A stretch of DNA of 64,000 nucleotides, from NCBI GenBank assembly GCA_022561875.1, contig JADFQJ010000012.1, positions 1 to 64,000 of the forward strand, written 5' to 3'. Positions 5,906 to 25,096 of this stretch are shown here, in pieces. This stretch comes from Bacteroidota bacterium. GTDB lineage: Bacteria > Bacteroidota > Bacteroidia > Bacteroidales > VadinHA17. The notes beneath the pieces are model-generated. The model had not been told where the DNA came from. It worked only from the letters and a program-made list of their open reading frames with translations, and did no database searches. A program made the position numbers and the translations under genes. Position 1 is the stretch's first letter. Each line of letters opens with the position of its first letter.

Positions 5906-6856
5906 TTAAAAAGGAAGTTTCGTAAGATCAACATTTCCGCCGGAAAGAATAACCCCTACCTGTTTATTTGCAAATATTTCAGGATTTTCCATTACAGCGC
6001 CGAGAGCTACAGCCGATGAGGGTTCGATGATTATTTTCATCCTTTCCCATACCATTCGCATAGCATTAACAATGGTTTCTTCACGAACAGTGATAATATC
6101 GTCAACTTTTTCGCGGATAATAGTGAATGTCATCTCACTGAGGGAGGTCAGCAGTCCGTCGGCGATGGTATCCGGGTTCAATGAAGGCTGCAGTATCCCG
6201 GATTTAAACGAGCGGTAAGCATCGTCGGCTTTTTCCGGTTCTGCACCAATCACTTTTGTTTTGCTGTTACAGCTCTTAATCCAGGTAGATGTCCCGCTTA
6301 TCAATCCGCCGCCACCAACCGGTGCAATTACAATATCAAGGTATGGATAATCCTCAATAAATTCCTTTGCTGCAGTTCCCTGTCCGCTAATAACATGGAA
6401 GTTATCATAAGGATGTATAAATGTTGCCCCGGTATTTTTTACAATTTTTTCAAGCTCTGATTCTCTCGCTTCCAGCGTTGGTTTGCAATATGTTATTTTT
6501 GCCCGGTAACCTTTTACCGCTTTCTTTTTTATTTCAGGTGAGTTTTCAGGCATGACAATAAAGGATGGAATACCTCTTAATTTTGCTGCCAGTGCAAGAG
6601 CTGCAGCATGATTACCGGAAGAATGGGTAGCCACTCCGTTTTTTGCCTGTTCGTCTGATAAGGAAAAAACTGCATTGCAGGCGCCCCGAAACTTAAAAGC
6701 GCCTGCTTTCTGAAAATTTTCACATTTAAAAAATAGTTTAGAATTTAAAAGGGTATTAATACTTTTTGATGTAAGCACCGGTGTTTTGTGGATATAAGTT
6801 CCGATATGCTTGTGAGCTTCAATAATATCTTCGAACCGTGGGATTTTTTGATTCAT
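5906..6856 (-). CDS. Threonine/serine dehydratase-like PLP enzyme
   Basis: This 316-residue fold-type II PLP enzyme carries the Schiff-base lysine in KAGAFKFRGACNAV, the substrate/phosphate segment SSGNHAAALALAA, the glycine loop APVGGGGLISG and the C-terminal LSGGNVD strand. It would deaminate threonine to 2-oxobutyrate or serine to pyruvate; close relatives are serine racemases. It lacks the C-terminal ACT-like regulatory domain of feedback-inhibited biosynthetic IlvA. It sits downstream of the ilv-leu-glt block but is separated by about 190 bp containing repeats, so it may be transcribed separately. Substrate choice cannot be settled from sequence. Confidence 0.85.
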   Translation of the reverse strand: MNQKIPRFEDIIEAHKHIGTYIHKTPVLTSKSINTLLNSKLFFKCENFQKAGAFKFRGACNAVFSLSDEQAKNGVATHSSGNHAAALALAAKLRGIPSFIVMPENSPEIKKKAVKGYRAKITYCKPTLEARESELEKIVKNTGATFIHPYDNFHVISGQGTAAKEFIEDYPYLDIVIAPVGGGGLISGTSTWIKSCNSKTKVIGAEPEKADDAYRSFKSGILQPSLNPDTIADGLLTSLSEMTFTIIREKVDDIITVREETIVNAMRMVWERMKIIIEPSSAVALGAVMENPEIFANKQVGVILSGGNVDLTKLPF

Positions 6857-7042: not shown

Positions 7043-7048
7043 GAGTCA
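7007..7048. repeat. Heptad tandem repeat including the gltD stop codon
   Basis: CCGACTG occurs at 7007, 7014, 7021 and 7035, with AAGATTG at 7028, all in exact 7-nt phase. The next heptad (7042-7048, CGAGTCA) holds the complement of the gltD TGA stop at 7046-7048. Confidence 0.85.
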
Positions 7049-8470
7049 CCCGGCGAGTAAAACCCGGTGAATATGATTTGCTGCTTGTTGACCGGATGCA
7101 ATGGCTTTTACTACCAGACCGGGGCCTGAAACCGCATCCCCAACGGCAAATATTTTAGAGCGGTTGGTTTCAAACGAATCATTCACTTTAATATTCCCTT
7201 TTTCATCAGAATCCATGTTTAGTTGCTCCAGCAGACCCTTATAAACAGGACGTGTAAATCCAAGGGCAAGAAAGACCATGTCTGCCTCAAAAGTCTTAAT
7301 GCTTCCTGATTTTTCAGACATAATCAATTGATTTTTGTCTCCTTTTTTCCAATCAAGTTCAACTGCTTCAATCCGGTTTACAATACCGTTTAAACCGGTA
7401 AATCTTTTTGTTCCAAGGCTCCAGTAACGTTTACAACCTTCTTCGTGCGAAGTTGTGGTCTTCAGGATAACCGGCCAGAATGGCCAGGGATTATCTTTTT
7501 GTCTGGTCTCAGGAGGTTTTGGTAATATCTCGATCTGGATTAAACTTTTGGCTCCCTGGCGAACAGCTGTACCGACACAATCCGAACCTGTATCTCCTCC
7601 TCCGAGAACTATCACATTCTTATTCTTTACAAAGATTCTTTCATTATCAGGAATGCTTTCCCCGGCAATCGCCCTGTTCTGTTGAGTCAGATAATCCATT
7701 GCAAAATGGATACCTTCAAGGCCTCTGCCTTCGATTTGCAGATCCCTTGGTTGCATAACACCAACAGCCAAACATACGGCATCAAATGTTTCGAGCAGGT
7801 TTTGTGCCGTTATATCCTTACCTATCAGGGTATTTGTTTTAATCACCAAACCTTCCTCCTCAAGAAGTTGTATTCTACGATCGATAATATTTTTATTCAA
7901 TTTAAAATCAGGTATCCCATACCTTAATAATCCTCCCGCTTTATTTTCTTTCTCAAAAAGTGTTACGGTATGCCCAAAGCGGTTTAACCTGACAGCCACT
8001 GAAAGGCCTGCCGGTCCTGATCCCACAACAGCCACTTTTTTCCCTGTTCTTTTCTCCGGTGGTCTGGGTACAATATAACCCATATCAAAAGCCTTTTCGA
8101 TCACTGCAACTTCGTTTTCACGGATAGTCACAGCCTCATTTTGGATAGCCAGCACACAGGACTTTTCACAGGGAGCCGGACAAACTCTGCCGGTAAACTC
8201 AGGAAAATCGTTGGTTAAGTGAAGAATATCACTGGCTTCTTTCCAGTCGCCCCGGTAAACAGCATCCTGCCATTCAGGCATTCTGCTTCCCACCGGGCAT
8301 CCCCAATGACAAAACGGAACACCACAATCCATACAACGGGATGCCTGAAGAATCCTGTCATCCGTATTCAGGGTTTGTTCAACATCACCATAATCCGATA
8401 TTCTTTCTTCTACCGGACGATTTCCGGCTTCTTTTCTTTTTACTTCAATAAATCCTTTTGGATTTCCCAT
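7046..8470 (-). CDS. gltD: Glutamate synthase small subunit
   Basis: This 474-residue flavoprotein is the NAD(P)H-dependent beta subunit of glutamate synthase. The N-terminal iron-sulfur region has CMDCGVPFCHWGCP and CPAPCEKSCV. The FAD-binding Rossmann fold is GSGPAGLSVAVRLN, the NAD(P) fold is GGGDTGSDCVGTAVRQ, and a final FAD motif is FAVGDAVSGPGLVVKAI. It passes electrons from NAD(P)H to the large subunit for conversion of 2-oxoglutarate plus glutamine into two glutamates. It lies 354 bp downstream of gltB; the gap contains repeats but no gene. The length fits the family. Confidence 0.95.
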   Translation of the reverse strand: MGNPKGFIEVKRKEAGNRPVEERISDYGDVEQTLNTDDRILQASRCMDCGVPFCHWGCPVGSRMPEWQDAVYRGDWKEASDILHLTNDFPEFTGRVCPAPCEKSCVLAIQNEAVTIRENEVAVIEKAFDMGYIVPRPPEKRTGKKVAVVGSGPAGLSVAVRLNRFGHTVTLFEKENKAGGLLRYGIPDFKLNKNIIDRRIQLLEEEGLVIKTNTLIGKDITAQNLLETFDAVCLAVGVMQPRDLQIEGRGLEGIHFAMDYLTQQNRAIAGESIPDNERIFVKNKNVIVLGGGDTGSDCVGTAVRQGAKSLIQIEILPKPPETRQKDNPWPFWPVILKTTTSHEEGCKRYWSLGTKRFTGLNGIVNRIEAVELDWKKGDKNQLIMSEKSGSIKTFEADMVFLALGFTRPVYKGLLEQLNMDSDEKGNIKVNDSFETNRSKIFAVGDAVSGPGLVVKAIASGQQAANHIHRVLLAG

Positions 8471-8793: not shown

Positions 8794-8828
8794 GAGTTAC
8801 GAGTTACGGGTTACGGGTTACGAGTCAC
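8794..8828. repeat. Heptad tandem repeat including the gltB stop codon
   Basis: Five units in exact 7-nt phase: GAGTTAC twice, GGGTTAC twice, then GAGTCAC at 8822-8828, which contains the complement of the gltB TGA stop (8825-8827). Confidence 0.85.
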
Positions 8829-11800
8829 TCAGCGTAATTAGGGTCATAGTCAGCGCGGCGTAATTTCAGATTTATTTCCCTCAGCTTTATTTCATTAAGC
8901 GCTTTTTTATATTCCAGTGGTAGTACCTTTACAAATTTTGGCAGGTATTCATCCCAATTAACCAAAACTTTTTCTGCAATTGCGCTTTTTGTATACTTCC
9001 AGTGTGTTGAAATCATTTCCTGCAACTCCCTGACATCTTCATAATCCGTCAATATGGTTAATTCAACCAGGTCATGGTTACAGTAATAAGAAAAATCTCC
9101 ATTAAGGTCTAAAACATAAGCTATCCCCGCACTCATTCCTGCCGCGAAATTTCGACCGGTTTTACCCAAAACAACAACGCGACCTCCTGTCATGTATTCA
9201 CAACCATGATCTCCTACACCTTCAACCACTGCAATTGCGCCGCTATTTCTTACACAAAACCTTTCGCCGGCAATTCCATTCACATAGATTTGTCCCTTCG
9301 TAGCTCCGTAAAGGATTGTATTTCCAATTATAATGTTTTCTTCTGCCTTTATTGTTGAAGAGGTTGGCAGAACCACTACGATCTTTCCACCTGATAAACC
9401 TTTACCGAGGTAATCATTCGCATCTCCCTCGAGCCGAAAGCTAATACCGTTTACAAGGAATGCACCAAAACTTTGTCCGGCGGAACCATAGAAATTACAA
9501 TTGATGGTATCTTCAGGAAGTCCATCCAGGCCATACTTTTCAGTTATTTCTCCGGAGAGCATCGCCCCGACCGAACGGTGGGTATTTGTAATTTCTCTGG
9601 ATATCCAAACCTTCTCTTTGTTTTTCAAGGCTTTGCCTGACAATCTGATGATCTCCTTATCGATTACTTCATCAATTTTGTGATGTTGAAGTTCAGTGTT
9701 ATACAAAGAATTAAAATCCGATTCTTTCGGATATGATATAATAGAGGAAACATCGAGTTTCTTTGCCTTTCTGTGATTTATGTCTTTTCTGACAAATAGC
9801 AAATCACTCCTCCCCACCAATTCGTCAAATTTCCTGAATCCCAGTTGTGCCATATATTCTCTTACTTCCGTGGCAAGAAAATTAAAATAGTTAACCACAT
9901 ATTCCGATTTGCCAAGGAAGCGTTTTCTTAATTTCCTGTCCTGCGTTGCAATACCTGTCGGACAGGTATTCAGGTGACATTTTCTCATCATAACACAACC
10001 CAAAACAATCAGTCCGGCAGTTGCTATTCCAAACTCTTCAGCGCCAAGCAATCCGGCAAAAATGATATCCCTGCCTGTTTTGATCTGACCATCCACTTGT
10101 ATTTTCACTCTACCCCTAAGATTGTTTATTACCAGGGTTTGATGGGTTTCAGCCAATCCCATTTCCAATGGGATACCGGCATGTTTGATTGAACCTGCCG
10201 GACTTGCTCCTGTACCGCCTTCGGTTCCGCTTATTACAATCAGATCGGCATGTGCTTTAGCTACACCGGCTGCAACGGTACCTACACCATCTTCTGCAAC
10301 AAGTTTCACACTGATTTTAGCATTTTTATTTACGCATTTCAGATCGAAGATCAGTTGAGCCAGATCCTCAATTGAATAGATATCATGGTGAGGGGGTGGT
10401 GAAATAAGGGTTATACCCGGTAATGAATTTCTGATACGGGCAATCACCTTATCAACTTTATGACCGGGAAGCTGACCGCCTTCTCCCGGCTTCGCTCCCT
10501 GCGCAATTTTTATCTGAATTTCATCAGCATTGACCAGATAATGTGTATTCACACCAAATCGTCCCGAGGCAACTTGTTTAATAGCGCTTCTTCGATTAAC
10601 TTCATTGGAACCCGTTTTAAACCGGTGAGGATCCTCTCCTCCTTCACCTGTATTGCTTCTTCCACCGATTTTATTCATTGCTATTGCAAGCGCTTCATGG
10701 GCTTCTTTACTAATTGCCCCGAAAGACATAGCGCCGGTCACAAATCGTTTCATAATGACCGATACGGGTTCGACTTCTGATATATCGATTGGATTTTTCC
10801 TAAAATCAAGTAATCCTCTCAGAAAAACAGGACGGCGCGTATGAAGATCGCTTAATTCAGAAAACTCCTTGAATTTCCGGTAATCGTCATTTGCTGTCGA
10901 CCATTGTAATAAACCAATTGCCTCAGGATCCCAGGCGTGATATTCTCCATCTTTCCGGTAAGCATATAATCCTTGCTGCAAAACCTTCTCATTCCCATTG
11001 TTAATCTGGTACGCAATCTTGTGATCCGCATGAATTTCTTCAGCGATTTCATCAAGACCGATTCCTCCAATCCTTGAACAGGTACCTTTAAAATATTTTT
11101 CAATAACATCTTCCCCTATTCCGACTGCCTCGAAAATTTGTGCGCCAAAATAACTTCTGAGAGTACAAATGCCCATTTTGGAAATGATTTTCAGTAGTCC
11201 CTTATTGATGGATTTTATGTAATTCTGTCTTGCCATGGAATAGGGAATGGATATTTTACCTGATTTGACCAAATCGTATAAGATGGCAAAACTGACATAA
11301 GGATTAATAACGCTTGCTCCATAACCAAGGAGTAATGCAAAATGATGTATTTCCCTGGCCTCGCCTGTTTCCACAATTAAACCAACCTGCATTCTTTTTT
11401 TTGTTGAAATCAAATGATGATGAATGGCGGAAACCGCCAGGAGTGAAGGAATAGGCGCCAGTTTTTCAGAGACCTGTTTATCGGAGAGAATAATAAAATT
11501 ATTTTTGTCATCTACTGCTTTTTCAGCAGATTCACATAGTTTTTTTAAAGCTGATTCAAGGCCCTTTCCACCTGAATTTACATTAAATACCATTTGAAGT
11601 GTTATATTGCTGAACGCTTCATGCTTCAAATCCTTGATTTTCCCCAGATCTGTATTGGTGATTATGGGAGACCTGAGTTTGATTAATTTACAGTGTTCCG
11701 GTGTTTCGATGAGAAGGTTCTTCTGAACCGAACCAATGTAATTAGTTAAAGACATAACCAGGCCTTCCCGGATCGGATCGATAGCCGGGTTCGTTACCTG

Positions 11801-13348
11801 GGCAAACATTTGACGGAAATAATTAAACAACCGCTGAGGTTTCCTGGCAAATATTGCCATTGGGGTATCGTTTCCCATTGAACTGACAGGTTCCCTTCCA
11901 TCGACTGCCATTGGTTTAATTATTACTTCAATATCTTCCTTACTATATCCAAATGCTTTAAGATAAGCAGGATATTTATCTCCCAGATTTGACGGAACCC
12001 TCTTTTGAACCTCAATTTCCTCAAGATTAAGACGATTTTCTTTCAACCAGTTTGCATATGGATTTCTTCTTGTCAATTCAGCTTTCAGTTCTTCGTTTGG
12101 AATAATAATTCCCAATTGAGTATCCACCAATAGTAACTTCCCAGGCCTTAATCTTCCTTTCTCCCTGATTTCTTCCTCTTTAAAGATTTGGACCCCCGTT
12201 TCAGACCCCATCACAATCAGGTCGTTTTTAGTTATGAGGTATCTTGAAGGTCTTAATCCGTTTCGATCGAGTGTACCTCCGATATACCGTCCGTCGGTTA
12301 ACAAGATTGATGCCGGGCCATCCCAGGGTTCCATAAACGTTGAATGGTATTCATAAAAAGCTTTTAAGCTATTGGGTATAGGGTTTTTGTCGTTCCAGGA
12401 TTCGGGAATTAACATACTCATGGCATGTGGAATAGTGCGTCCGGTAAGCATTAAAAATTCCAAAACATTATCCAGTGAAGCTGAATCACTTTTCCCGGGT
12501 TCGATTACCGGGAATAATTTTTTAAGGTCTTCACCAAAAAGTTCTGATTTCAGAAGGGATTCCCTGGCATGCATCCATAATCTGTTCCCTTTAATGGTGT
12601 TGATTTCTCCGTTGTGTGCTAAATACCGGAAAGGTTGTGCCAAATCCCATGTCGGGAAAGTGTTGGTGCTAAATCGTGAATGCACCAATGCAATAGCACT
12701 TTTCAGATGTGGATCACAAAGATCGGGATAATATTCGGCAAGTTGATCCGGGGTAAACATTCCCTTATACACAAGTGTTTTAGTTGAAAGGCTTGGGATA
12801 TAAAATGCTTCTTCACAGAACAGATTGGAATTCCTGACTTCCCTTTCAATCTTTTTTCTTACGATATATAATTTCCTTTCAAGTTCATCCTGTTCCAGTC
12901 TGGCTGAAATAAAAATCTGGAGAATTGAAGGCTCAGCAGAGATTGCAATTTCACCCAAACCTGAATTATTAACCGGCACTTGTCTGAACTCAATAAAATT
13001 AAGACCTTCTTCGATAATAACCTGAAGCAGTTTTTCTTTATACCATTTAGCTGCTTCTTCCTTTTTTGGAAGGAAAATGAGACCGGTACCATATTCTCCC
13101 GGGTTTGGAACTTTAATCCCATTATGTAAAAAAAAATCATGTGGGATTTGAATAGTAATTCCGGCTCCGTCGCCCGTTTTATTATCCGCACCTTCTGCTC
13201 CTCTATGAGCCATATTGATGATCACCTCCAATCCGCGCTGAATAATTTCATGGGATTTTCGCCCTTTTATATGCGCAACAAATCCAATTCCACAACTGTC
13301 ATGCTCATTCTCAGGATTATACAATCCGAATTTCCTTTGCTGTTTCAT
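8825..13348 (-). CDS. gltB: Glutamate synthase large subunit
   Basis: The 1507-residue protein is a full-length ferredoxin/NADPH-type glutamate synthase alpha subunit. The N-terminal glutaminase starts at Cys19 (DSCGIGFVAHIKG) after a short propeptide, as in other Ntn amidotransferases. The central and FMN-binding synthase domains carry TGEGGEDPHRF, GAKPGEGGQLPGHKV and the 3Fe-4S cysteines in CVMMRKCHLNTCPTG. A C-terminal right-handed beta-helix (GxxG repeats, TGGRVVVLGKTGRNFAAGMSAG) follows. Ammonia released from glutamine is channelled to 2-oxoglutarate. The start lies only 11 nt behind leuB, suggesting transcription as part of the ilv-leu operon. Confidence 0.97.
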   Translation of the reverse strand: MKQQRKFGLYNPENEHDSCGIGFVAHIKGRKSHEIIQRGLEVIINMAHRGAEGADNKTGDGAGITIQIPHDFFLHNGIKVPNPGEYGTGLIFLPKKEEAAKWYKEKLLQVIIEEGLNFIEFRQVPVNNSGLGEIAISAEPSILQIFISARLEQDELERKLYIVRKKIEREVRNSNLFCEEAFYIPSLSTKTLVYKGMFTPDQLAEYYPDLCDPHLKSAIALVHSRFSTNTFPTWDLAQPFRYLAHNGEINTIKGNRLWMHARESLLKSELFGEDLKKLFPVIEPGKSDSASLDNVLEFLMLTGRTIPHAMSMLIPESWNDKNPIPNSLKAFYEYHSTFMEPWDGPASILLTDGRYIGGTLDRNGLRPSRYLITKNDLIVMGSETGVQIFKEEEIREKGRLRPGKLLLVDTQLGIIIPNEELKAELTRRNPYANWLKENRLNLEEIEVQKRVPSNLGDKYPAYLKAFGYSKEDIEVIIKPMAVDGREPVSSMGNDTPMAIFARKPQRLFNYFRQMFAQVTNPAIDPIREGLVMSLTNYIGSVQKNLLIETPEHCKLIKLRSPIITNTDLGKIKDLKHEAFSNITLQMVFNVNSGGKGLESALKKLCESAEKAVDDKNNFIILSDKQVSEKLAPIPSLLAVSAIHHHLISTKKRMQVGLIVETGEAREIHHFALLLGYGASVINPYVSFAILYDLVKSGKISIPYSMARQNYIKSINKGLLKIISKMGICTLRSYFGAQIFEAVGIGEDVIEKYFKGTCSRIGGIGLDEIAEEIHADHKIAYQINNGNEKVLQQGLYAYRKDGEYHAWDPEAIGLLQWSTANDDYRKFKEFSELSDLHTRRPVFLRGLLDFRKNPIDISEVEPVSVIMKRFVTGAMSFGAISKEAHEALAIAMNKIGGRSNTGEGGEDPHRFKTGSNEVNRRSAIKQVASGRFGVNTHYLVNADEIQIKIAQGAKPGEGGQLPGHKVDKVIARIRNSLPGITLISPPPHHDIYSIEDLAQLIFDLKCVNKNAKISVKLVAEDGVGTVAAGVAKAHADLIVISGTEGGTGASPAGSIKHAGIPLEMGLAETHQTLVINNLRGRVKIQVDGQIKTGRDIIFAGLLGAEEFGIATAGLIVLGCVMMRKCHLNTCPTGIATQDRKLRKRFLGKSEYVVNYFNFLATEVREYMAQLGFRKFDELVGRSDLLFVRKDINHRKAKKLDVSSIISYPKESDFNSLYNTELQHHKIDEVIDKEIIRLSGKALKNKEKVWISREITNTHRSVGAMLSGEITEKYGLDGLPEDTINCNFYGSAGQSFGAFLVNGISFRLEGDANDYLGKGLSGGKIVVVLPTSSTIKAEENIIIGNTILYGATKGQIYVNGIAGERFCVRNSGAIAVVEGVGDHGCEYMTGGRVVVLGKTGRNFAAGMSAGIAYVLDLNGDFSYYCNHDLVELTILTDYEDVRELQEMISTHWKYTKSAIAEKVLVNWDEYLPKFVKVLPLEYKKALNEIKLREINLKLRRADYDPNYAE

Positions 13349-13359
13349 ATCCTGATCCT

Positions 13360-14427
13360 TTAGTTACTTTCAATATAGTTTGCAATCCAGTCTCCAACCT
13401 TCGATGTTGTTTTTGGATTATCGTTTGCAATATCTTCTGTGACGATACCTTGTTTCAGGGATTGTTCAACAGCAAGGTATATTAAGGATGCCTCATCTTT
13501 AAGCTTAAATGCATAATTAAACATCAGTGATGCTGACAATATTGTGCCGAGAGGATTTGCGATATTTTTTCCGGCAGCCTGCGGATAGGATCCGTGAATT
13601 GGTTCAAATACAGAAGTAAGTTTACCAATTGAAGCTGAAGGCAGCAAACCAAGTGATCCGCATATCACTGAAGCTTCATCAGTGAGTATATCTCCAAACA
13701 TATTTTCGGTGACCATTACATCGAATCGTTTTGGATTTTGTATGATTTGCATAGCTGCATTATCTACAAACATAAAGTCCAGGTCAACATCCGGATATTC
13801 TTTGCCCATTTTCTGAGCCGTTTCTCTCCACAACCTGGAAGAAGCCAAAACATTTGCTTTATCCACAACTGTGAGTTTTCCGGAACGTTTTTTTGCATAT
13901 TGAAAGGCTAAGTGAAGGATCCTTTCAATTTCCTCTCTGGTATAAATGCAAGTGTCGAAGGCAACATTACCGTCTTCTGATCTTCCTCTCGGTTCTCCAA
14001 AATATATTCCACCTGTTAATTCCCTGATAACAATAAAATCAACTCCGTCAATTATTTCAGGTTTTAACGGTGATTTTTCGATCAATGACGGGAAAGTAAA
14101 AACGGGACGAATATTAGCAAACAGACCCAGTTTTTTCCTCATAGCGAGTAATCCCTGTTCGGGTCTGATAAAAGCCTTTGGGTCCATATCATATTTCGGG
14201 TCACCAATGGCACCAAACAAAACTGCGTCAGATCGTTTACATAACTCAAATGTCTCGTCAGGAAACGGATTTCCAGCTTTATCAATAGCAATTGCTCCGA
14301 CCAATCCTTTTTCATACCGTATCTTATGATTGAATTTACCGGCAATAGCTTCCACAACTTTTACTGCCTGTGAAATGATTTCAGGTCCAATTCCATCTCC
14401 GGACAACAATGCAATTCTAATGTTCAT
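13360..14427 (-). CDS. leuB: 3-isopropylmalate dehydrogenase
   Basis: The 355-residue protein has the isocitrate/isopropylmalate dehydrogenase fold: [11 protein letters not shown] at the start, [16 protein letters not shown] in the substrate loop, [33 protein letters not shown] with the metal-binding Asp residues, and the nucleotide segment [19 protein letters not shown]. It oxidises and decarboxylates 3-isopropylmalate in leucine synthesis. If the upstream enzyme makes citramalate, it can also act on 3-methylmalate for isoleucine. It starts 1 nt after the stop codon of the citramalate/isopropylmalate synthase gene, so the two are translationally coupled. Confidence 0.95.
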
Positions 14428-14428
14428 T

Positions 14429-15946
14429 TTATTTTAAATTTTCAATGATATTCAACATTTTGACAGTGGCTTTTATTGCTGCTTCGGTTTGATCGGCTTC
14501 AACAGCCCTGGTTCTAAATTCATGATCTTTAAAATTCCAGGTAATGATAGTCTCTACTAACGCATCGGTTTTCCCGCCGGGAGGGATGGTTACAATATAA
14601 TCGATAAGAATCGGTCGTTCTTTGTGCAAGGAATTGTAAATTTTCCATAATGCTTTCATAAAGGCATCATACTGACCATTTCCTACTGAACTTTTTTCAT
14701 ATGATTTTCCCTGGATTTCAATACATATATTTGCTACCGGTTTAAGACCATTTGCAAGCGACAATGAATAGTGCTTAATCTTAACAGGATTATCTATTGC
14801 ACCGTTTCCCAATACATCCGATATGATATATGGCAGATCTTCCGTGGTTACATATTCTTTCCTGTCTCCTAATTCAATAACCCTGGCTGTGACTTTTTTC
14901 ATTGATTCCGGATCAAGATCCAATCCCAACACTTCAAGATTTTTTTTAATATTAGCTTTACCTGAGGTTTTCCCGAGAGCATATTTCCTTACCCGGCCAA
15001 ACCGTTCAGGTATAAGGTTGTTTTGATATAAATTATTCTTACTGTCACCGTCAGCATGAACACCACAGGTTTGGGTAAAAACATTTTCACCAATCAAAGG
15101 TTTGTTTGAGGGAATCCGGATACCGGAAAATGATTCTACCAGTCGACTGATCCTGGTAAGACTGTTTTCATTAAGATTGGTTTTTATTTTCAAATGATCA
15201 TTCAGAATTCCTAATACACTGGATAGGGGGACATTACCTGCACGTTCACCAAGTCCGTTTACGGTTGTGTGTATTCCCCGGATTCCCGCTTTAATGGAAG
15301 CAAATACGTTTGCCACAGCCAGATCATAATCGTTATGAGCATGAAAATCAAAATGTTTACCGGGATATCGCCGGATCATTAATTTGCAAAATTCATACGT
15401 CTGATCCATATTTAAAATTCCCAGCGTATCAGGCAACATATACCTGTCAATTTTTTCATCTTTAAGAGAATCCATCAGGAAATAAACATAATCTCTTGAA
15501 TTTAACATCCCATTCGACCAGTCCTCAAAATAAATATTAACCTTGATCCCCAGCTCATTTGCATAATGAATGGAGTTACAAATATCCCTGATGTGCTCAT
15601 CGGGTGTTTTTCTTAATTGTTCGCGAAGATGCTTAAGAGAACCTTTACTTAAAAGATTCATAACTTTTGCACCTGTTTTATTGATCCAGTCGATTGAAAT
15701 ATTACCGTCAATAAACCCAAGGACTTCAACTTTATCCAGGAGATTATTTCTGCCGGCCCAATCTGTAATTTTCTTAACCCCTTTGAATTCTCCTTCAGAA
15801 ACCCTGGCTGAAGCCACTTCAACACGGTCAATTTTTACTTCTTCCAATAATATCCTGGCTATGTTCAGTTTTTCCACAGAATTAAAGGAAACCCCTGAAG
15901 TTTGCTCACCATCCCGCAGGGTGGTATCCATTATTTCAATTTTCAT
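14429..15946 (-). CDS. Citramalate synthase/2-isopropylmalate synthase paralogue
   Basis: This 505-residue DRE-TIM enzyme begins [16 protein letters not shown], has the metal-binding [15 protein letters not shown] and [13 protein letters not shown] motifs, and ends in a LeuA-type allosteric domain ([16 protein letters not shown]..., [13 protein letters not shown]). It is the second synthase of this kind in the operon. Its divergence from the neighbouring LeuA and its place beside leuB, leuC and leuD suggest (R)-citramalate synthase, condensing pyruvate with acetyl-CoA to start isoleucine synthesis without threonine. That substrate is inferred, not shown. Its start overlaps the leuD end by 11 nt. 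Confidence 0.8.
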
Positions 15947-16544
15947 TTTCGAATGATTTTATTTTCTCGAAATCAATGATCCGGCGCTTTAAGCTGATCA
16001 AATAATCAATGTCATCATAACCGTTCAACAAGCACTCTTTTTTATAACTGTTTATTTCGAAATTTTCTTTTATACCTGATGCAGCAAGGCTGATCTCCTG
16101 GTTTGGGAGGTCGATTTTTACAATGGTTCCGTGATCATTTTCAATAGCTGTAAACAGGATTTTTAAAAAGGATTTAGTAACCTGAACGGGGAGTAACCCG
16201 GTATTTAATGCGTTATTCTTAAATATATCGGCAAAAAAACTGGATACCACTACCTTAAACCCATAATCATAAATAGCCCACGCGGCATGTTCCCTGCTGG
16301 ATCCGCTACCGAAATTTTTTCCTCCCAAAAGAATCTGTCCTGAGTATTCCGTATTATTCAGTATAAAGTCAGGAACAGGTTTATTATTCTTATCATACCT
16401 CCAATCCCTGAACAGGTAATTGGCAAATCCTTCCCGGGAAATGGCTTTAAGAAATCTGGCTGGAATAATCTGATCAGTGTCAATATTCTCAGCAGGCAGA
16501 GGAACACAGGTTGATTCTAGTATTTCAAATTTATCGATTGGCAT
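15936..16544 (-). CDS. leuD: 3-isopropylmalate dehydratase small subunit
   Basis: The 202-residue protein matches LeuD. It has the swivelling aconitase C-terminal-like domain with [13 protein letters not shown] near the N-terminus and [18 protein letters not shown], the loop that contacts substrate. It pairs with LeuC to isomerise 2-isopropylmalate to 3-isopropylmalate, and probably citramalate to 3-methylmalate. The gene lies 6 nt downstream of leuC and overlaps the next synthase gene by 11 nt, consistent with coupled translation. Confidence 0.95.
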
Positions 16545-16550
16545 TTTTTA

Positions 16551-17945
16551 TTATTTAAATATTCGCGGATCAGTAATTTTTCCTGTAATAGCTGAGGCAG
16601 CTGCAACTAATGGACTGGCAAGCAGTGTTCTGGCTCCGGGGCCTTGCCTTCCTTCAAAATTCCGGTTAGAGGTAGAAACAGAATATTTTCCTTCAGGAAT
16701 TTTGTCCTCGTTCATAGCAAGGCATGCCGAGCAGCCAGGCTGTCTTAGCTCAAAACCTGCTTCGTAAAGGAGATTCACCAGGCCTTCTGCTTTAGCTTGC
16801 TTTTCAACCTGTTTGGAGCCGGGAACAATCCATGCTGTTATTCTATCGGCTTTTTTGTGACCCTGTACCAATGAAGTGAAAGCGCGAATGTCTTCAATCC
16901 GGCCATTTGTACAACTTCCAACAAAGACAAAATCAACCGGGAGGTCAATCAGTGATCTGCCTGGTATGAAATTCATGTATTCCATTGATTTCCTGAAAGA
17001 TTCTCTGTTGTTCTCTTCGATATCCTCAATAAAAGGGATACTGTCAGTTATTTTCATCCCCATTCCCGGATTTGTACCATAAGTGATCATAGGTTCGATA
17101 TCTTCTGCTTTGAAAGACAATTCCTTATCAAATACTGCGTTATCATCAGATTTGAGTGTTTTAAACAGGATAAGGGATTTATCCATATCTGTTCCTTTTG
17201 GAGAGAACTTACGATCTTTTATGTAATTAAATGTAGTTTCATCGGGAGCGATTATACCTCCGCGTGCACCCATTTCAATGCTCATATTACAAATAGTCAT
17301 CCTTGCTTCCATACTCATGTTTCTTATAGTAGAGCCCGCGTATTCAATAAAATAGCCGGTACTTCCACTGGCTGATATTTTGGATATAATATGGAGAATT
17401 ATGTCTTTTGAGCTAACACATTTATTAAGTTTTCCATTAATAAAAATTCTCATTTTCTTCGGTTTGGTCTGAAGGACACATTGGCTGGCCAATGCCATCT
17501 CCACCTCACTGGTACCAATCCCAAAAGCTATACAGCCAAAAGCGCCATGAGTGGATGTATGGCTATCGCCACAAACGATAGTCATGCCAGGTTGCGTAAG
17601 TCCAAGCTCCGGTGCGATAACGTGAATTATCCCGTTAAATGGGTGATTTATACCATACAAAGTTATATTATGCTCTCTGCAATTTTCACTTAGTTTATCT
17701 ACCTGCTGCTTTGATAATTCATCACGAATAGGGAGGTGCTGGTTTTGTGTAGGTATATTATGATCTGCAGCAGCAATGATTTTTTCAGGTCTGAAGACCG
17801 GGAAATTTCTTTTCCTGAGGCCTGCAAAGGCCTGAGGACTGGTTACCTCATGAATCAGATGGCGATCGATATACAAAACATCAGGGCCATTTTCAATGGA
17901 TGAAATAACGTGTGCATCCCAAATTTTATCAAATAGTGTTTTCAC
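16551..17945 (-). CDS. leuC: 3-isopropylmalate dehydratase large subunit
   Basis: The 464-residue protein is an aconitase-superfamily LeuC. It has HEVTSPQAF and [14 protein letters not shown] in the N-terminal part, and the 4Fe-4S cysteine motifs [12 protein letters not shown] and [12 protein letters not shown]. It forms the dehydratase with LeuD. The start codon is GTG (17943-17945) and overlaps the leuA stop in the arrangement GTGA, a strong sign of translational coupling. No in-frame ATG upstream would avoid a large overlap with leuA. Confidence 0.95.
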
Positions 17946-19462
17946 TTTTTCATTCCATTAACTGTAACATCATAGCATTTAGAGATTGCATCAACAAATG
18001 CTTCGACTGATGCTGTTATTATATCGGTATTAGCAGAAAACCCATAGTAGAGCTTACCTCGGTTTTCAATCTGAATATGCACTTTGCCTATGTCATCACT
18101 CCCTCTTGTTATAGCCTGAATAAGGAATTCCTCAAGACGTACTTTACGATTTATCAATTGTTTGACAGCAGAAAAAGCCGCATCTATCGGTCCATTCCCT
18201 GACGCAGTGGCTGAAACAATCTTATCGTTCATTTTTAATCTTACGGTAGCCATAGGGACGGCTGATTTTCCACATATTACCTGTAACAGATCGAGCTTTA
18301 TATGTTTTCCCTCTATTTTGGCTGTTCCGGCAAGTATTCTCAGGTCATCATCTTTAATATCTTTCTTTTTGTCAGCAAGAGTAAGAAATTTATGATATAA
18401 TCCATTCAATTTTTCTTTACTGAAGCTATATCCAAGTATTTCAAACCGGTGTTTTAAGGCAGCCCTTCCGCTTCTGGCAGTAAGTATAATTGAAGATTCC
18501 TTAATACCGATATCCGTTGGATCGATTATTTCATAATTTTCCCTTTTTTTCAATACGCCGTCCTGGTGTATACCGGAGGAATGTGCAAAGGCGTTCCTGC
18601 CGACAATTGCTTTGTTAGCTTGAACCGGCATTCGCATGATAGTAGAAACAAGTCTGCTGGATGCATATATCTTTTTGGAATTAATCCCTGTTTTAAAAGG
18701 AAGATCAGAGTGGCTCTTCATGATCATTGCAATTTCTTCCAATGAAGTATTTCCCGCTCTTTCACCAATTCCGTTTAAAGTTACTTCCACTTGTCTGGCT
18801 CCGTTCAGGACTCCCATAATAGTATTGGCTGTTGCTAATCCCAGATCGTTATGACAGTGAGTTGAAATAACGGCCTTATGAATGCCTTTTACATTTTCTT
18901 TAAGGAATTTTATTTTTGCTCCATATTCCTCAGGAAGGCAATATCCTGTAGTGTCAGGGATATTAAGCACTGTTGCACCAGCCTTGACCACAGCTTCAAT
19001 TACCCTTGCAAGATACTCATTTTCTGTACGACCTGCATCTTCAGCGAAGAATTCAACATCGTGAACAAATTTCTTTGCATATTTCACTGCTTCCACAGCC
19101 CGTGTAATTATCTCCTCCTGGTTGGAATTCAGTTTATGAGTTATATGGAACCAGGAGGTGCCTATACCGGTATGAATACGTGGTTTTTTTGCAAACTTTA
19201 ATGACTCTGCAGCCACTTCAATATCATTTTTCACAGCCCTTGTTAATGCACAAATAATGGGTTGTTTTACAGCTTTCGATATTTCTACTATCGATTGGAA
19301 ATCACCAGGGCTGGAAACGGGGAATCCTGCCTCAATAATGTCCACTCCAAGTGTTTCCAGGGCTTTTGCAATTTCGATTTTTTCGACTGTATTCAATTGG
19401 CAACCAGGCACCTGTTCTCCATCTCTGAGGGTTGTGTCGAAAATAAATATCTGATCTTCCAT
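17942..19462 (-). CDS. leuA: 2-isopropylmalate synthase
   Basis: This 506-residue protein opens with [19 protein letters not shown] and contains [15 protein letters not shown] (metal-binding His pair), [14 protein letters not shown] and [10 protein letters not shown], typical of LeuA. A C-terminal leucine-sensing domain ([20 protein letters not shown]) is present, so feedback inhibition is expected. It condenses 2-oxoisovalerate with acetyl-CoA, the committed step of leucine synthesis. It overlaps leuC by 4 nt and follows ilvC after 62 nt, where no terminator is visible. Confidence 0.95.
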
Positions 19463-19524
19463 TTTAGTTGGTCTTTAATATATTATTAATTATAAGTTCG
19501 TCGCTGCGTTCCTCACGTCATTCA

Positions 19525-20574
19525 CTATTCTCTATTAGATCTTAATTTCCTTACCTGTACACCGGTCTGCCACATTTCCGATTCCCTCATTTCTTTCAAT
19601 TCAGCATCCAGTTCACTCTTATAGTTTTCACTCCCGGTCCTTTCAAGTACAATTCTGGTTTCATTTCCTGTTTTCACGCTTTCATACAAATCATTAAAAA
19701 CCGGCAATACTGCTTCACGGAATTTATGCCTCCAGTCCAATGCCCCTCTTTGTGCTGTAGCGCTGCAGTTTGCATACATCCAATCCATACCGTTTTCATC
19801 AACCAGTCTTATTAAGCTTTGTGTCAACTCTTCAACAGTTTCATTAAAAGCTTCGCTTGGACTATGACCATTTTCACGCAGTACTTTATACTGAGCTTCC
19901 ATAATTCCTGCAATTGCACCCATCAGAACTCCTCTTTCCCCGGTAAGGTCGCTATACACTTCGTTCTTAAAAGTTGTTGGAAACAGGTAACCGGATCCTA
20001 TGGCAATACCTATAGCTAAAGTTCTTTCTTCAGCTCGTCCGGTGAAATCCTGGTAAACTGCATAGCTTGAATTTATACCACTGCCGGCGAGGAAATTCCT
20101 ACGTACACTTAACCCCGATCCTTTTGGCGCAACCATGATAACATCTACATTATCGGGTGGTACTACCCCGGTTTGCTCCATATAAGTTATTGAAAATCCA
20201 TGTGAGAAATAGAGAGCATCCCCTTCGTTGAGGTATTGTTTCAGGTTTGGCCACACTGAACGTTGAGCAGCATCAGATATCAGATATTGAATAATTGTAG
20301 CTTTTTTAGCAGCTTCTTCGATAGGAAACAAGGTCTTTCCGGGTATCCAGCCATCTTTTACTGCCCGTTCCCAATCCTCTTTAAAATCGGGTGACTGGCC
20401 TATAATTACGTTAAACCCATTATCTCTCATATTCAAAGATTGCGCAGGGCCTTGAACGCCATAACCAATAACAGCGATTATTTCATTTTTTAGGACCTCA
20501 AGTGCTTTTTTGACAGGAAATTCATCACGGGTTACTACATTTTCTGTTACACCTCCAAAATTAATTTTTGCCAT
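19525..20574 (-). CDS. ilvC: Ketol-acid reductoisomerase
   Basis: The 349-residue protein has the KARI Rossmann motif GYGVQGPAQSLNMRDNG, the catalytic segment MVAPKGSGLSVRRNF, and DLTGERGVLMGAIAGIMEAQY with the metal-binding Asp/Glu pair followed by the knotted helical domain (EELTQSLIRLVDENGMDWMY). It converts acetolactate and acetohydroxybutyrate to dihydroxy acids using NAD(P)H in valine, leucine and isoleucine synthesis. It lies third from the synthase genes in the same direction, about 100 nt after ilvN. Confidence 0.95.
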   Translation of the reverse strand: MAKINFGGVTENVVTRDEFPVKKALEVLKNEIIAVIGYGVQGPAQSLNMRDNGFNVIIGQSPDFKEDWERAVKDGWIPGKTLFPIEEAAKKATIIQYLISDAAQRSVWPNLKQYLNEGDALYFSHGFSITYMEQTGVVPPDNVDVIMVAPKGSGLSVRRNFLAGSGINSSYAVYQDFTGRAEERTLAIGIAIGSGYLFPTTFKNEVYSDLTGERGVLMGAIAGIMEAQYKVLRENGHSPSEAFNETVEELTQSLIRLVDENGMDWMYANCSATAQRGALDWRHKFREAVLPVFNDLYESVKTGNETRIVLERTGSENYKSELDAELKEMRESEMWQTGVQVRKLRSNRE

Positions 20575-20674
20575 AATTTTAAATAAATGTTAATAATTAT
20601 TTAATAGTAATTTTATTTCTTCTATCTAAAAATATTTACTCGTTTCAAAAGATCAGTTATCATAATTCTATATT

Positions 20675-21250
20675 CTAAAAATCAGATTTTATTTCTGCCA
20701 CAAAGTCATTATCCTGTTTTATATTATTTGCCTCATCCATCTCTTTGAGATATGCGATCAACTCTTTTTTTTGTTTTGTAATAGCTACCCTTCCTGACCG
20801 GACAAATTGTAAAACCCCATAAGGGTCAAGTTTATTCAGCAGATCAGCTGTATCCTGTTTGTGGCCTGTTTTTTCAATAACCACATATTCCGGTGTAATT
20901 TCAAGGAACCTGGCATTTGATGAACGAACAATAAATTCAATCTTGTTACTTTTCATTAACTCAGTTGTTCGTACTTTATACAAGGCTATTTCCTGGTAAA
21001 TAATTTCATCGTTTGTGTGTACAAATACTTTAAGAACATCAATTAGTTTTTCCAGTTGTCGTTGTATTTTATCAATCAGATCTTCTGTTGTATTGACCAC
21101 AATGGTTAATTTATGAATTCCCTTAACGGCAGATTCGGAGGCAGCTATACTTTCGATGTTAATTTGTCTTCTTGTAAAGATTAGAGTAACCTGGTTAAGA
21201 ATACCAATATGATGTTCTGTAAATAGTGAGACAGTAAATTCTTTTTTCAT
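20675..21250 (-). CDS. ilvN: Acetolactate synthase regulatory subunit
   Basis: The 191-residue protein carries an N-terminal ACT domain (FTVSLFTEHHIGILNQVTLIFTRRQINIESIAAS) and a C-terminal regulatory domain (EFIVRSSNARFLEITPEYVVIEKTGHKQ, LLNKLDPYGVLQFVRSGRVAI). It binds valine and stimulates and feedback-inhibits IlvB. The gene follows ilvB by 71 nt. One copy of the 29-30 bp dispersed repeat lies in that gap, so the repeat has inserted inside an operon. Confidence 0.93.
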   Translation of the reverse strand: MKKEFTVSLFTEHHIGILNQVTLIFTRRQINIESIAASESAVKGIHKLTIVVNTTEDLIDKIQRQLEKLIDVLKVFVHTNDEIIYQEIALYKVRTTELMKSNKIEFIVRSSNARFLEITPEYVVIEKTGHKQDTADLLNKLDPYGVLQFVRSGRVAITKQKKELIAYLKEMDEANNIKQDNDFVAEIKSDF

Positions 21251-21265
21251 TGTATTAAATATTAG

Positions 21266-21295
21266 GTAACTATTCAGTGTCTTAAGTTTGGAATG
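21266..21295 (-). repeat. Copy of the 29-30 bp dispersed repeat
   Basis: On the minus strand the sequence begins CATTCCAAACTTAAG and ends ACTGAATAGTTAC. It is identical to the copies near 38.6 and 47.1 kb and differs by a 1-nt insertion from the one at 53.8 kb. It sits between ilvB and ilvN. Confidence 0.9.
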
Positions 21296-21321
21296 CTAAT
21301 ATAAAGAAATGCCTAAAGCAC

Positions 21322-23031
21322 CTAACAAAGTTTAACTTCAGAAACTGACGAACCTGGTTCTATCATAGGGAAAATGTTCCCTTCTTTTTCTACCATTATC
21401 TCGAGCAGGCAGGGTTTTTCGCAGGAAAGCATTTCATCAATGGAAGTCTCAAGGGTTTCCCGTTCTTTAACCCGCCTTGCTGTAATATCAAAACCTTCTG
21501 CAATTTTGATGAAATCAGGATTAACAAGTTCAGTTGATGCATACCTTTTATCAAAAAACATTTCCTGCCATTGCCGGACCATACCTAGAAAATTATTGTT
21601 TAAAATAATTATCTTCACCGGAAGTTTATATTGGAGGATAGTTCCCAATTCCTGTATTGTCATTTGAAACCCCCCATCTCCAATAAACGCAATAACCGGA
21701 ACATTAGGTTTACCCACTTTTGCACCTACAGCAGCTGGTAATCCGAAGCCCATTGTTCCCATCCCGCCGGAAGTAATCAGGCTATTAGGATTTTTAAACT
21801 TATAATATCTTGCAGTTGCCATTTGATGTTGGCCTACATCGGTTATAATGATGGCTTCTCCCTGTGTTTTTTCAGAAATAAGACTAACTATTTCACCCAT
21901 TCTTATTTTTCCCCGGGATGGATAACATTCCTGTTTTATAACTTTATCGTTTTCAATTTTATTACATGATTTAAATTCAGAAAGCCACTCAGGATAGGAG
22001 TTAGCTTTCACCTGATCAATAAGTGCTTTTAGAGCTTCTTTGGCATCACCGTGTAGTTCAATATCGACTTCTACATTTTTGTTTAATTCAGATCTGTCAA
22101 TTTCGATATGGATAATGTTGGCATTTATTGCATATCTTTTAAGGTCACCCGTGACCCTGTCATCGAACCGCATTCCAATAGCAATCAGCAAATCAGCTTC
22201 ATTTGTTTTGATATTAGGTCCATAGTTACCATGCATTCCAAGTAATCCGGTATATAGTGGATGTTTGGCAGGAAATGCAGATAATCCCAATAGAGTTAAT
22301 GCCACGGGAATACCTGTTTTTTCCACAAAGGCCATCAGCTCTTTCTCTGCCTTTGATATCAGAATACCATGGCCTGCCAGGATCAATGGTTTTCTGGCAT
22401 GATTGATAAGAATTGCTGCGGATTCAATATCAGCAGGGTTCAGGGGAATATTTGGAATATAGCTTCTGAGGCTGGTGCATTTCTGATAGTTGAAAGTTAA
22501 TGTTTGCAGTTGAGCATCCTTGGTAATATCGATCAAAACCGGACCGGGTCTGCCAGAACCTGCAATATAAAAAGCTTTCGAAATAACTTCAGGGATATCT
22601 ACAGCTTGTTTGATCTGATAATTCCATTTGGTAATCGGCATTGAAATTCCAAGAATATCAGTCTCCTGGAAAGCATCTGATCCTATCAGGCTCGAGGTTA
22701 CCTGGGCAGTTATGAAAACTACAGGAACAGAATCAAGAAAAGCATTGGCAATACCGGTTATCAGGTTTGTAGCTCCTGGTCCGGAAGTAGCAAAGCATAC
22801 TCCTGTTTTACCTGTAACCATTGCATATGCCTGAGCTGCATGTGCTGCACCTTGCTCATGCCGCGTCAGTATGTGCTTCAGTTTTTTGTCTTCAATATCA
22901 TATAATGCATCATAAATTGGCATAATAGCGCCTCCAGGGTAACCAAAAATGGTTTCTACTTTTTCCTCGAGGAGGGAATAGAGCAGTGCCTTTGCCCCGG
23001 TGATCTTTTCGTTTTTTCTTGTCTTTGCCAT
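21322..23031 (-). CDS. ilvB: Acetolactate synthase catalytic subunit
   Basis: This is a ThDP enzyme of 569 residues from the ATG at 23031. The N-terminal PYR domain has FGYPGGAIMPIYDAL and the catalytic Glu in RHEQGAAHAAQAYA. The central FAD-binding domain has GMHGNYGPNIKTNEADLLIAIGMRFDDRVTG. The C-terminal PP domain has the ThDP motif GDGGFQMTIQELGTI...NN. It condenses two pyruvates, or pyruvate with 2-oxobutyrate. An upstream TTG at 23073 would add 14 residues without family support, so the ATG is preferred. It lies 46 nt after ilvD and works with IlvN. Confidence 0.95.
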   Translation of the reverse strand: MAKTRKNEKITGAKALLYSLLEEKVETIFGYPGGAIMPIYDALYDIEDKKLKHILTRHEQGAAHAAQAYAMVTGKTGVCFATSGPGATNLITGIANAFLDSVPVVFITAQVTSSLIGSDAFQETDILGISMPITKWNYQIKQAVDIPEVISKAFYIAGSGRPGPVLIDITKDAQLQTLTFNYQKCTSLRSYIPNIPLNPADIESAAILINHARKPLILAGHGILISKAEKELMAFVEKTGIPVALTLLGLSAFPAKHPLYTGLLGMHGNYGPNIKTNEADLLIAIGMRFDDRVTGDLKRYAINANIIHIEIDRSELNKNVEVDIELHGDAKEALKALIDQVKANSYPEWLSEFKSCNKIENDKVIKQECYPSRGKIRMGEIVSLISEKTQGEAIIITDVGQHQMATARYYKFKNPNSLITSGGMGTMGFGLPAAVGAKVGKPNVPVIAFIGDGGFQMTIQELGTILQYKLPVKIIILNNNFLGMVRQWQEMFFDKRYASTELVNPDFIKIAEGFDITARRVKERETLETSIDEMLSCEKPCLLEIMVEKEGNIFPMIEPGSSVSEVKLC

Positions 23032-23077
23032 ATTATTCTGTTTTCGGACTGTGGTTATTAATTGATAGATCAAATCG

Positions 23078-24898
23078 TTATATTTCTCTAACAGCGCCTT
23101 TATTTGCCGAAGTAACCATTTGCGCGTAAGCTTTTAAAGCATCAGAAATATGACGAACCCGGTTTTTGGGTTTAAATGCCATAGCGCCTTTTTTTTCTTC
23201 CTTATTCAATCTATCTGAAATTTCTTCGTCAGTAAGTTTAACGTTTATCATTCTTTGTGCTATGTCAATTTCTATTACATCATTTTCCCAAACCAGTGAA
23301 AGTTCACCGCCGGCAGCAGCTTCAGGTGATATATGGCCAATGGAAAGACCGGATGTTCCACCAGAGAACCTGCCATCTGTAATAAGGGCACACTTTTTAT
23401 CCAAATTCCGCGACTTAAGGTATGAAGTCGGGTAGAGCATTTCCTGCATACCTGGTCCCCCTTTTGGTCCTTCATACCTTATCACAACTGCATCACCTGC
23501 CTTAACTTCACCGTTTAAAATACCATCACAAGCCGCCTCCTGTGACTCATATATCCTTGCTTCACCCCGGAAATAAAAAAGGGAAGGATCAACACCCGCG
23601 GTCTTCACAATGCATCCATCCCTGGCAATATTACCATAAAGAACAGCAAGTCCTCCATCCTTGTTGTAAGCGTTATTAATATCCCTTATACAACCCTTTT
23701 TCCGATCCGTGTCAAGGTTACCATATATCTTATCCTGGGAACCCATTTCAAGACTTTTTACATTTCCTGGTGCACTTCTGAAAATACTAATTGCTTCACT
23801 TGTAACTGTTTTTCTTTGAATATCAAATGCATTGATGGCATCTTTAAGGTTTGGAAAATCAATTCTTCCAACGGAAGTGTGGATAAGTCCTGCCTTTTCA
23901 AGTTCTCCCATAATTGACAGTATCCCACCTGCTTTGTTAACATCCTGAACATGGTAACCTGAGTTGGGCGCTACTTTGCATAATGTCGGGACCAGTCTGG
24001 ATAATCTGTCAACGTCTGTCATACTGAAATCAACCTCAGCTTCATTAGCAATGGCAAGCAAGTGTAATATTGTATTTGTTGAGCCTCCCATGGCAATATC
24101 CAGAGACATAGCGTTAAGAAATGCCTCCCTTGTTGCAATTGACCGTGGTAAGACGGAAGTATCGCCATTCCTATAGTACCGGTAGGCCAATTTAACAATC
24201 AGGTTAGCAGCCTGTTCAAACAACCTTAACCGGTTTTTGTGGGTAGCAATAATGGTTCCGTTTCCGGGAAGAGCAAGGCCTAGGGCTTCATTAAGGCAGT
24301 TCATGGAATTCGCAGTAAACATACCTGAGCAGGAACCGCAAGTTGGACAGGCAGCCTTTTCAATTTTATTTAGAAAAGAATCACTCACAGATGGATCTCC
24401 GGCCATGACAATTACATCAACAAGGTCATAATGTTTGTCATTAACAACTCCGGCTTCCATTGGACCGCCGGAAACAAAAACTGTCGGGATATTCAGTCTC
24501 ATTGCTGCCATTAGCATTCCGGGAGTAATCTTGTCACAATTACTGATACATATCATGGCGTCTGCCATATGAGCATTACAAACATATTCAATGCTATCTG
24601 CAATCAGTTCACGGGAGGGAAGTGAATACAGCATTCCTTCATGGCCCATTGCAATACCATCATCAATTGCAATAGTATTGAATTCGGCGGCATAGCAACC
24701 TTGCTTTTCTATCCATGACTTTATGAGCTGACCGGCGTTGTGCAGATGAGTATGACCCGGAACAAATTGGGAGAAAGAATTCACAACTGCAATGATCGGA
24801 TTCCCGAATTGTTCTTCCTTCATTCCGCTAGCGCGCCATAGACTTCTCGCTCCGGCCATATTCCTTCCTGCAGTTGTACGATGACTTCTTAATTTCAT
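23078..24898 (-). CDS. ilvD: Dihydroxy-acid dehydratase
   Basis: The 606-residue protein matches IlvD/Edd dehydratases. It has [31 protein letters not shown] and [32 protein letters not shown] with the iron-sulfur cysteines, plus [14 protein letters not shown] and [20 protein letters not shown]. It dehydrates dihydroxyisovalerate and its isoleucine homologue to the 2-keto acids. It is the first structural gene of the ilv-leu-glt cluster. Its ATG is only 12 nt after the U-tract of an intrinsic terminator, which marks the leader as an attenuator. Confidence 0.95.
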
Positions 24899-24910: not shown

Positions 24911-24950
24911 TGAAAGAAAAAGCCGCTCTCTTTCTGTGAGAACGGCTTTT
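24911..24950 (-). terminator. Attenuator terminator upstream of ilvD
   Basis: On the minus strand AAGCCGTTCTC (24948-24938) pairs with GAGAGCGGCTT (24930-24920) as an 11-bp stem with one G-T pair and a 7-nt loop. The run TTTTTCTTTC follows. It ends about 12 nt before the ilvD ATG, so read-through is required for operon expression. Its 5' arm can pair with an upstream segment (24973-24986) instead. Confidence 0.85.
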
Positions 24951-24972
24951 TTTTATTGTTTTTTCAAAACAT

Positions 24973-25033
24973 ACCTTTCTCACCTTCAATATCCGTAAAG
25001 GATATTAATAATAAAAAGGTTGAGAATTAAGGT
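24973..25033 (-). promoter_or_regulatory. Antiterminator and anti-antiterminator segments of the ilv-leu leader
   Basis: Segment 2 (24986-24973, AAGGTGAGAAAGGT) contains GTGAGAA, exactly complementary to TTCTCAC in the terminator's 5' arm. Pairing would block the terminator. Segment 1 (25033-25016, ACCTTAATTCTCAACCTT) lies inside the leader-peptide gene over its Thr-Leu-Ile-Leu-Asn-Leu codons and can pair with segment 2 with small bulges. A ribosome stalled on those codons would cover segment 1 and favour antitermination. This is the classic three-way switch of amino-acid attenuators; the folding is inferred from complementarity. Confidence 0.7.
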
Positions 25034-25045
25034 ACGTTTAAACAT
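24986..25045 (-). CDS. Leader peptide of the ilv-leu operon
   Basis: A 19-codon ORF reads MFKRTLILNLFIINILYGY and stops with TGA at 24988-24986. Eight of 19 residues are Leu or Ile, clustered as LILNLFIINIL; there is no Val. It starts about 20 nt behind a Bacteroidota -7 box and is followed by alternative RNA helices and an intrinsic terminator just before ilvD. Scarcity of charged tRNA-Leu or tRNA-Ile would stall ribosomes here and let RNA polymerase read into the operon. It is too short for standard gene calling and the peptide itself is not expected to have a function. Confidence 0.8.
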   Translation of the reverse strand: MFKRTLILNLFIINILYGY

Positions 25046-25065
25046 TTTCTTCTTGAATTAAACAT

Positions 25066-25096
25066 CAAATGTAGAGATAAATATTAATTATCAAAA
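25066..25096 (-). promoter_or_regulatory. Promoter of the ilv-leu operon
   Basis: The minus strand has TTTTG at 25096-25092, an 18-nt spacer, then TACATTTG at 25073-25066, matching the Bacteroidota -33/-7 pattern. The predicted start near 25059 leaves about 14 nt before the leader-peptide ATG. Confidence 0.65.

Follow-up and report, generated by a model that had tools for sequence, protein, structure and literature searches.

A leader-peptide attenuator very probably controls the ilvD-led branched-chain operon of a Bacteroidales bacterium and recurs in its relatives

How does this Bacteroidota bacterium adjust the expression of its branched-chain amino acid genes to its needs? The question is raised by a short region, 24911-25096, located immediately upstream of ilvD on the minus strand of the 64 000-nucleotide stretch of DNA analysed here (the window). 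The original prediction, made by reading the sequence, proposed for this region the geometry of ribosome-stalling attenuation. This geometry is supported by the anatomy of the leader, the folds of its alternative states, its conservation and covariation in relatives, all computed here, and by the his and trp leaders. We conclude that the leader is very likely a ribosome-mediated transcription attenuator of the kind found before trp, ilv and leu in E. coli, and that it controls the branched-chain operon headed by ilvD.

All of the elements of the leader are on the minus strand. The promoter is composed of a -33 element TTTTG (25092..25096) and, after a spacer of 18 nt, a -7 element TACATTTG (25066..25073) that matches the Bacteroidota consensus TAnnTTTG. 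The leader ORF, read directly from the sequence (24986..25045, with the ATG at 25045), encodes MFKRTLILNLFIINILYGY* in 19 codons; eight of these (four Leu and four Ile, at positions 6-8, 10, 12, 13, 15 and 16) specify Leu or Ile, and none specifies Val. There are three mutually exclusive pairings in the region. Segment 1 (ACCTTAATTCTCAACCTT, 25016..25033) is complementary to segment 2 (AAGGTGAGAAAGGT, 24973..24986); segment 2, through GTGAGAA, can also pair with segment 3 (TTCTCAC, 24936..24942), which comprises the end of the 5' arm of the terminator and two bases of its loop; and the third pairing, 3:4, is the intrinsic terminator itself (24911..24951). Promoter, ORF, 1:2 complementarity and GTGAGAA/TTCTCAC match had all been predicted, and each was recovered, with segments 1 and 2 at the coordinates given in the prediction. 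The terminator, predicted as an 11-bp hairpin ending 12 nt before ilvD, is indeed present, with a U-rich tail that stops some 12 nt short of the ilvD ATG, but the stem is longer, with 14 bp (24951-24938 with 24930-24917, including one G-U pair) around a loop of 7 nt, and ends 18 nt before the ATG. The U-tract is interrupted by a C (TTTTTCTTTC). A further hairpin, AATATCC...GGATATT (24988..25006), is predicted within 1:2, where the ORF ends; its sequence is mostly retained within the genus, and it is a possible pause hairpin.

An automatic promoter and terminator pattern scan of the window detected neither element of the leader unit. The promoter was missed because the rule applied was the sigma-70 consensus, and the terminator because the rule needs at least five T in the eight bases after the stem, the stem of this terminator absorbing its own T-run.

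The states of the leader were compared by folding the nascent transcript cut where the terminator loop ends, before the 3' arm exists. The assumed ribosome footprint extended 14 nt downstream from the first base of the A-site codon, and the RNA behind the ribosome was omitted. With no ribosome, 1:2 forms and P(2:3) is 0.000. With the A site at each codon tested between positions 6 and 16, a permissive stretch that includes all eight Leu/Ile codons, segment 2 is free and P(2:3) is 1.00. A ribosome that has reached the stop codon covers segment 2, and P(2:3) falls to 0.00. Folding with segment 1 open or ribosome-covered, the comparison suggested together with the original prediction, separates the two states completely (P(2:3) 0 versus 1.00). 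Because a stall at codons 15-16 leaves segment 1 behind the ribosome, the earlier Leu/Ile codons are probably the effective ones. The completed terminator is the most stable fold in every case, so antitermination must be kinetic; a finished terminator is usually the best fold in attenuator switches.

From these states we infer the stalling, termination and read-through events, and the amino acids that count, as follows. The transcript would begin shortly after the TAnnTTTG box, and its 19-codon leader would then be translated. Under a shortage of Leu-tRNA or Ile-tRNA, the ribosome would stall at a Leu/Ile codon and cover segment 1, leaving segment 2 to take segment 3; no terminator would form and the operon would be transcribed. 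When charged tRNA is ample, the ribosome would arrive at the stop codon and cover segment 2, allowing 3:4 to form and transcription to stop before ilvD. If the leader is not translated, 1:2 would pair and the terminator would form too. Through its leader, the bacterium would very probably restrict synthesis of the branched-chain enzymes to times when these amino acids are scarce.

The composition of the ORF is unremarkable by itself: an open frame with at least eight I/L is kept in 232 of 5000 shuffles (4.6%). The full strict architecture was found in only one of 3620 shuffled upstream regions, and there is no second match to it on either strand of the 64 kb window. The 1:2 duplex of the window has an energy of -20.7 kcal/mol, compared with a mean of -10.7 for synonymous recodings (p=0.0008), and segment 1 is tuned to segment 2 beyond coding need. 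The same tendency is seen in the relatives, with a mean z of -1.28 in the expected direction and p<0.05 reached singly at 36 of 102 loci. When segments were swapped among all loci, only 30 of 102 native 2:3 pairings ranked among the best 5%, but this test is weak, one segment-2 sequence being common to many loci; as in all our shuffle and swap tests, relatedness among the loci is not fully accounted for in the statistics. Cross-class and loop-base tests (see below) were used in its place.

We collected ilvD upstream regions at the levels of family, order, class and phylum and added those of named GTDB genomes. Among the loci with an ilvD at least 58% identical, 92 of 181 pass the strict test. 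Leader ORF and terminator, whose conservation in relatives had been proposed as a check on the original prediction, are found together, with the 2:3 pairing, by this test at 47 of the 50 ilvD genes of the same family and at 28 of 52 elsewhere in the order. There are two matches in 25 from other orders of the class and none in 29 from other classes; the set of named genomes, which extends to other phyla, gives 21 of 79. This automatic test is conservative and misses units that are visible by eye, namely in a member of the genus (L003), at L078, in Odoribacter laneus (L210) and in Bacteroides graminisolvens (L216). In the Bacteroidales, I/L/V-rich leader ORFs are kept at the same place, the amino acids of the pathway being retained while the sequence drifts. 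The promoter box is conserved as well: TAnnTTTG occurs within 72 nt before the leader ORF at 79 of 94 related loci, versus 7.7% in shuffles, at a median of 22 nt from the leader start codon.

Two loci of another order of the class (L117 and L119), with a distant ilvD, carry an I/V-rich ORF (MQISIIITSVIVVNV...), a segment 2 of the GGGAATG type and a terminator. To judge from their sequences, they may represent a distant version of the same element outside the Bacteroidales.

In the terminator stem of 27 family sequences, 91.3 per cent of the cells are paired and 76 cells are double-changed, versus 29.8 after shuffling; the covariation score is 0.670, and it does not exceed 0.294 when the partner is slid by one column. 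The stem predicted before ilvD thus covaries, and this bears on whether the main effect of the leader could lie in translation, through ribosome stalling or reinitiation that exposes the start of ilvD, and not in termination of transcription. For Bacteroidetes, one paper has proposed reinitiation downstream of leader genes and reports distances of 11-14 bp (PMC4833913). Here, the leader stop codon lies 87 nt from the ilvD ATG and the covarying hairpin, with its U-tract, stands before ilvD; we regard a mainly translational role as extremely unlikely.

The 2:3 pairing on which attenuation of transcription would depend is also conserved, in two unrelated, compensating sequence classes of segment 2/segment 3, GGTGAGAA/TTCTCACC and CCGGGAA/TTCCCGG. 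The mean 2:3 energies of the native classes are -14.4 and -14.0 kcal/mol, versus -6.5 and -6.6 for cross-class combinations; we rely on class averages because few leaders of one class outdo each of their cross-class partners, only five of 25 in the CCGGGAA class as against 50 of 57 in the other. The terminator accounts for part of the difference, since segment 2 has to be similar to segment 4. The bases of the terminator loop provide a test independent of the terminator, since they take no part in 3:4. The 2:3 helix extends into the loop by a mean of 1.27 nt, versus 0.57 nt with swapped loops (0 of 2000 as high).

These results can be set against a simpler reading of the hairpin, as the ordinary 3' terminator of the upstream gene, with the ORF present by chance. 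The neighbour, hppA (pyrophosphatase), does adjoin the leader on the same strand, ending at 25121. However, a promoter and a conserved ORF stand between hppA and the hairpin, and a plain terminator leaves the 2:3 complementarity, loop bases included, unexplained. Moreover, hppA is upstream at only 12 of the 102 attenuator loci, so the leader unit travels with ilvD. We consider a terminator of hppA very improbable, and retain attenuation before ilvD.

The same genome carries two further leaders of this type, which were located by family search: MSLIQLHHHHSHACAQTRMK with a terminator before hisG, and MNYIYRNNSWRGWWTWINIRERLTLRC with a terminator before trpE. Both are present in a congener too. 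Because three biosynthetic operons carry three cognate leaders, the ribosome-mediated reading is far more likely than it would be from any one leader alone. A riboswitch, a T-box or a protein-binding attenuator, with the small ORF being incidental, would be expected to look similar, with alternative structures and a terminator. Against this stand the His and Trp leaders before the his and trp genes, the leader ORF that retains the amino acids of its pathway despite sequence drift, and the Rfam searches. At gathering score, Rfam recognizes only a tRNA in the 64 kb window and nothing at the locus; at the relaxed threshold, the locus yields only sub-threshold look-alikes, with no T-box or riboswitch. 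Such a non-ribosomal regulator is thus highly unlikely at this locus. The best of the look-alikes is RF00506 (Thr_leader, the enterobacterial thr attenuator; minus strand 24913-25029, 34.6 bits for a gathering score of 55), a match that is likely to reflect only shared architecture and A+U-rich Ile codons.

Upstream of trpE at L241 and L242, in the same genus, there are Trp leaders containing RGWWTW and RWWGWWTW, with a terminator. At L238 and L240, the arm and loop of the his attenuator terminator (TTTGAGTAAATC) are complementary to a conserved TTTACTCAG located about 20-25 nt before the hisG ATG. This match could perhaps constitute a further switch or mask the start site.

To which amino acids would the ilvD leader respond? 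The original prediction took the absence of Val codons as a sign that only Leu and Ile are sensed. Val is absent from the window leader and from all seven leaders examined in the genus, but it is present in 25 of 48 family leaders (absent from 23) and in 29 of 30 leaders of other families (absent from one), many of which have Val runs. Because the leaders of relatives are often Val-rich, sensing of Leu and Ile only would be a local state. The Val content of the leaders is 5.3 per cent where leu genes follow in the operon and 23 per cent elsewhere (raw counts). On the ilvD tree, no more than about three changes of the Val-poor trait are seen, so its association with leu genes is offered as a suggestion.

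The first structural gene, ilvD (23078..24898), matches NCBIfam NF009103 and TIGR00110 above cut-off. It is followed, also on the minus strand, by ilvB, ilvN, ilvC, leuA, leuC, leuD, a citramalate-synthase-like gene and leuB (13360..23073), all identified by NCBIfam except leuD, and by a gltB-like ORF (8825..13348) that begins 11 nt after leuB. The intergenic gaps from ilvD through gltB do not exceed 100 nt. A gltD-like ORF (7046-8470) and an ilvA-like ORF (5906-6856) come next on the same strand, preceded by gaps of 354 and 189 nt, respectively. The names gltB, gltD, ilvA and leuD were assigned by inspection of the translations rather than by family search. The order ilvDBNC-leuACD-leuB is common among relatives in the family. 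The predicted control of an ilv-leu-glt operon agrees with the close spacing of leuB and gltB in the window, but the glt part varies among relatives: gltBD follows leuB in three of them and is absent there in others, including a member of the genus. Control of glt by the leader is plausible here and is not a general feature. Within the leu cluster, the best NCBIfam match of the citramalate-synthase-like gene (14429-15946) is the Leptospira CimA model, below cut-off, which suggests a threonine-independent route to isoleucine.

The mechanism is the classical one of textbooks, and it is from Proteobacteria and Actinobacteria that leader-peptide control of amino acid synthesis is best known. In E. 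coli, the ilvGMEDA, ilvB and leu operons are controlled by leader-peptide attenuators, which have in common with the window a leader ORF with cognate codons, the pairings 1:2, 2:3 and 3:4, and a terminator before the first structural gene of a branched-chain operon. The window differs by its Bacteroidota promoter, its ilvD-first operon with leu genes and its leader without Val; Leu_leader has no match in it at either Rfam threshold. Bacteroid-trp RNA (RF01692), which we take to be a Trp leader-peptide attenuator, controls trp, whereas the genes of the window are ilv and leu; it has no match in the window and none in the genome, whose own trp leader it does not recognize. In the literature and Rfam searched for leader-peptide control in Bacteroidota, only a trp motif was found. 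The literature search found no description of the ilvD element, although Lopatovskaya et al. 2010, cited in PMC4833913, may include Bacteroidetes examples that overlap with ours. The present analysis adds a branched-chain family apparently uncatalogued in Rfam and spread over much of the Bacteroidales, together with leaders of the same type before his and trp and a small number of loci with tandem units.

In published work, Bacteroid-trp was reported as a cis-regulatory candidate in Bacteroidetes (PMC2864571), and leader-like sORFs in 5' UTRs of Bacteroides thetaiotaomicron were found reminiscent of leader peptides that mediate attenuation (PMC7366714). A wide survey of 2010 that reported a Bacillus case named Proteobacteria and Actinobacteria as the other groups in which leader-peptide systems had been demonstrated (PMC2965389). 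BCAA uORF attenuators are described from Corynebacterium and others, including the motifs ilvB-II, in Corynebacterium, and ilvB-OMG, with a BCAA-rich uORF, a terminator and an antiterminator before an ilv operon (PMC10272879); the terms searched in that paper returned no mention of Bacteroidetes. The gene concerned is ilvB, versus ilvD in the window, and the likeness noted here is one of architecture.

More tentatively, attenuation might be a general and ancestral control of the ilv, his and trp operons in the class Bacteroidia, with the sensed codons retuned according to operon content (Leu/Ile where leu genes are joined, Val-rich where they are not) and with two complete attenuators in series in some lineages. 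If attenuation is general there, close coupling of transcription and translation would be required in these bacteria. The attenuator family, which occurs in the gut genera Bacteroides, Phocaeicola (P. faecalis, L228) and Odoribacter, offers a simple test of this coupling in the phylum and of the response to amino acid supply, and its sequences could serve directly as the seed alignment of a new RNA family.

Apparent tandem attenuators are present before ilvD in three separate genera, at L050 (G051), L162 (Labilibaculum sp. K2S) and L086 (G157). Each of these loci has two complete I/L/V-rich leader ORFs in series, each followed by its own hairpin terminator; poor U-tracts are seen at L050 in the first terminator and at L086 in the second.
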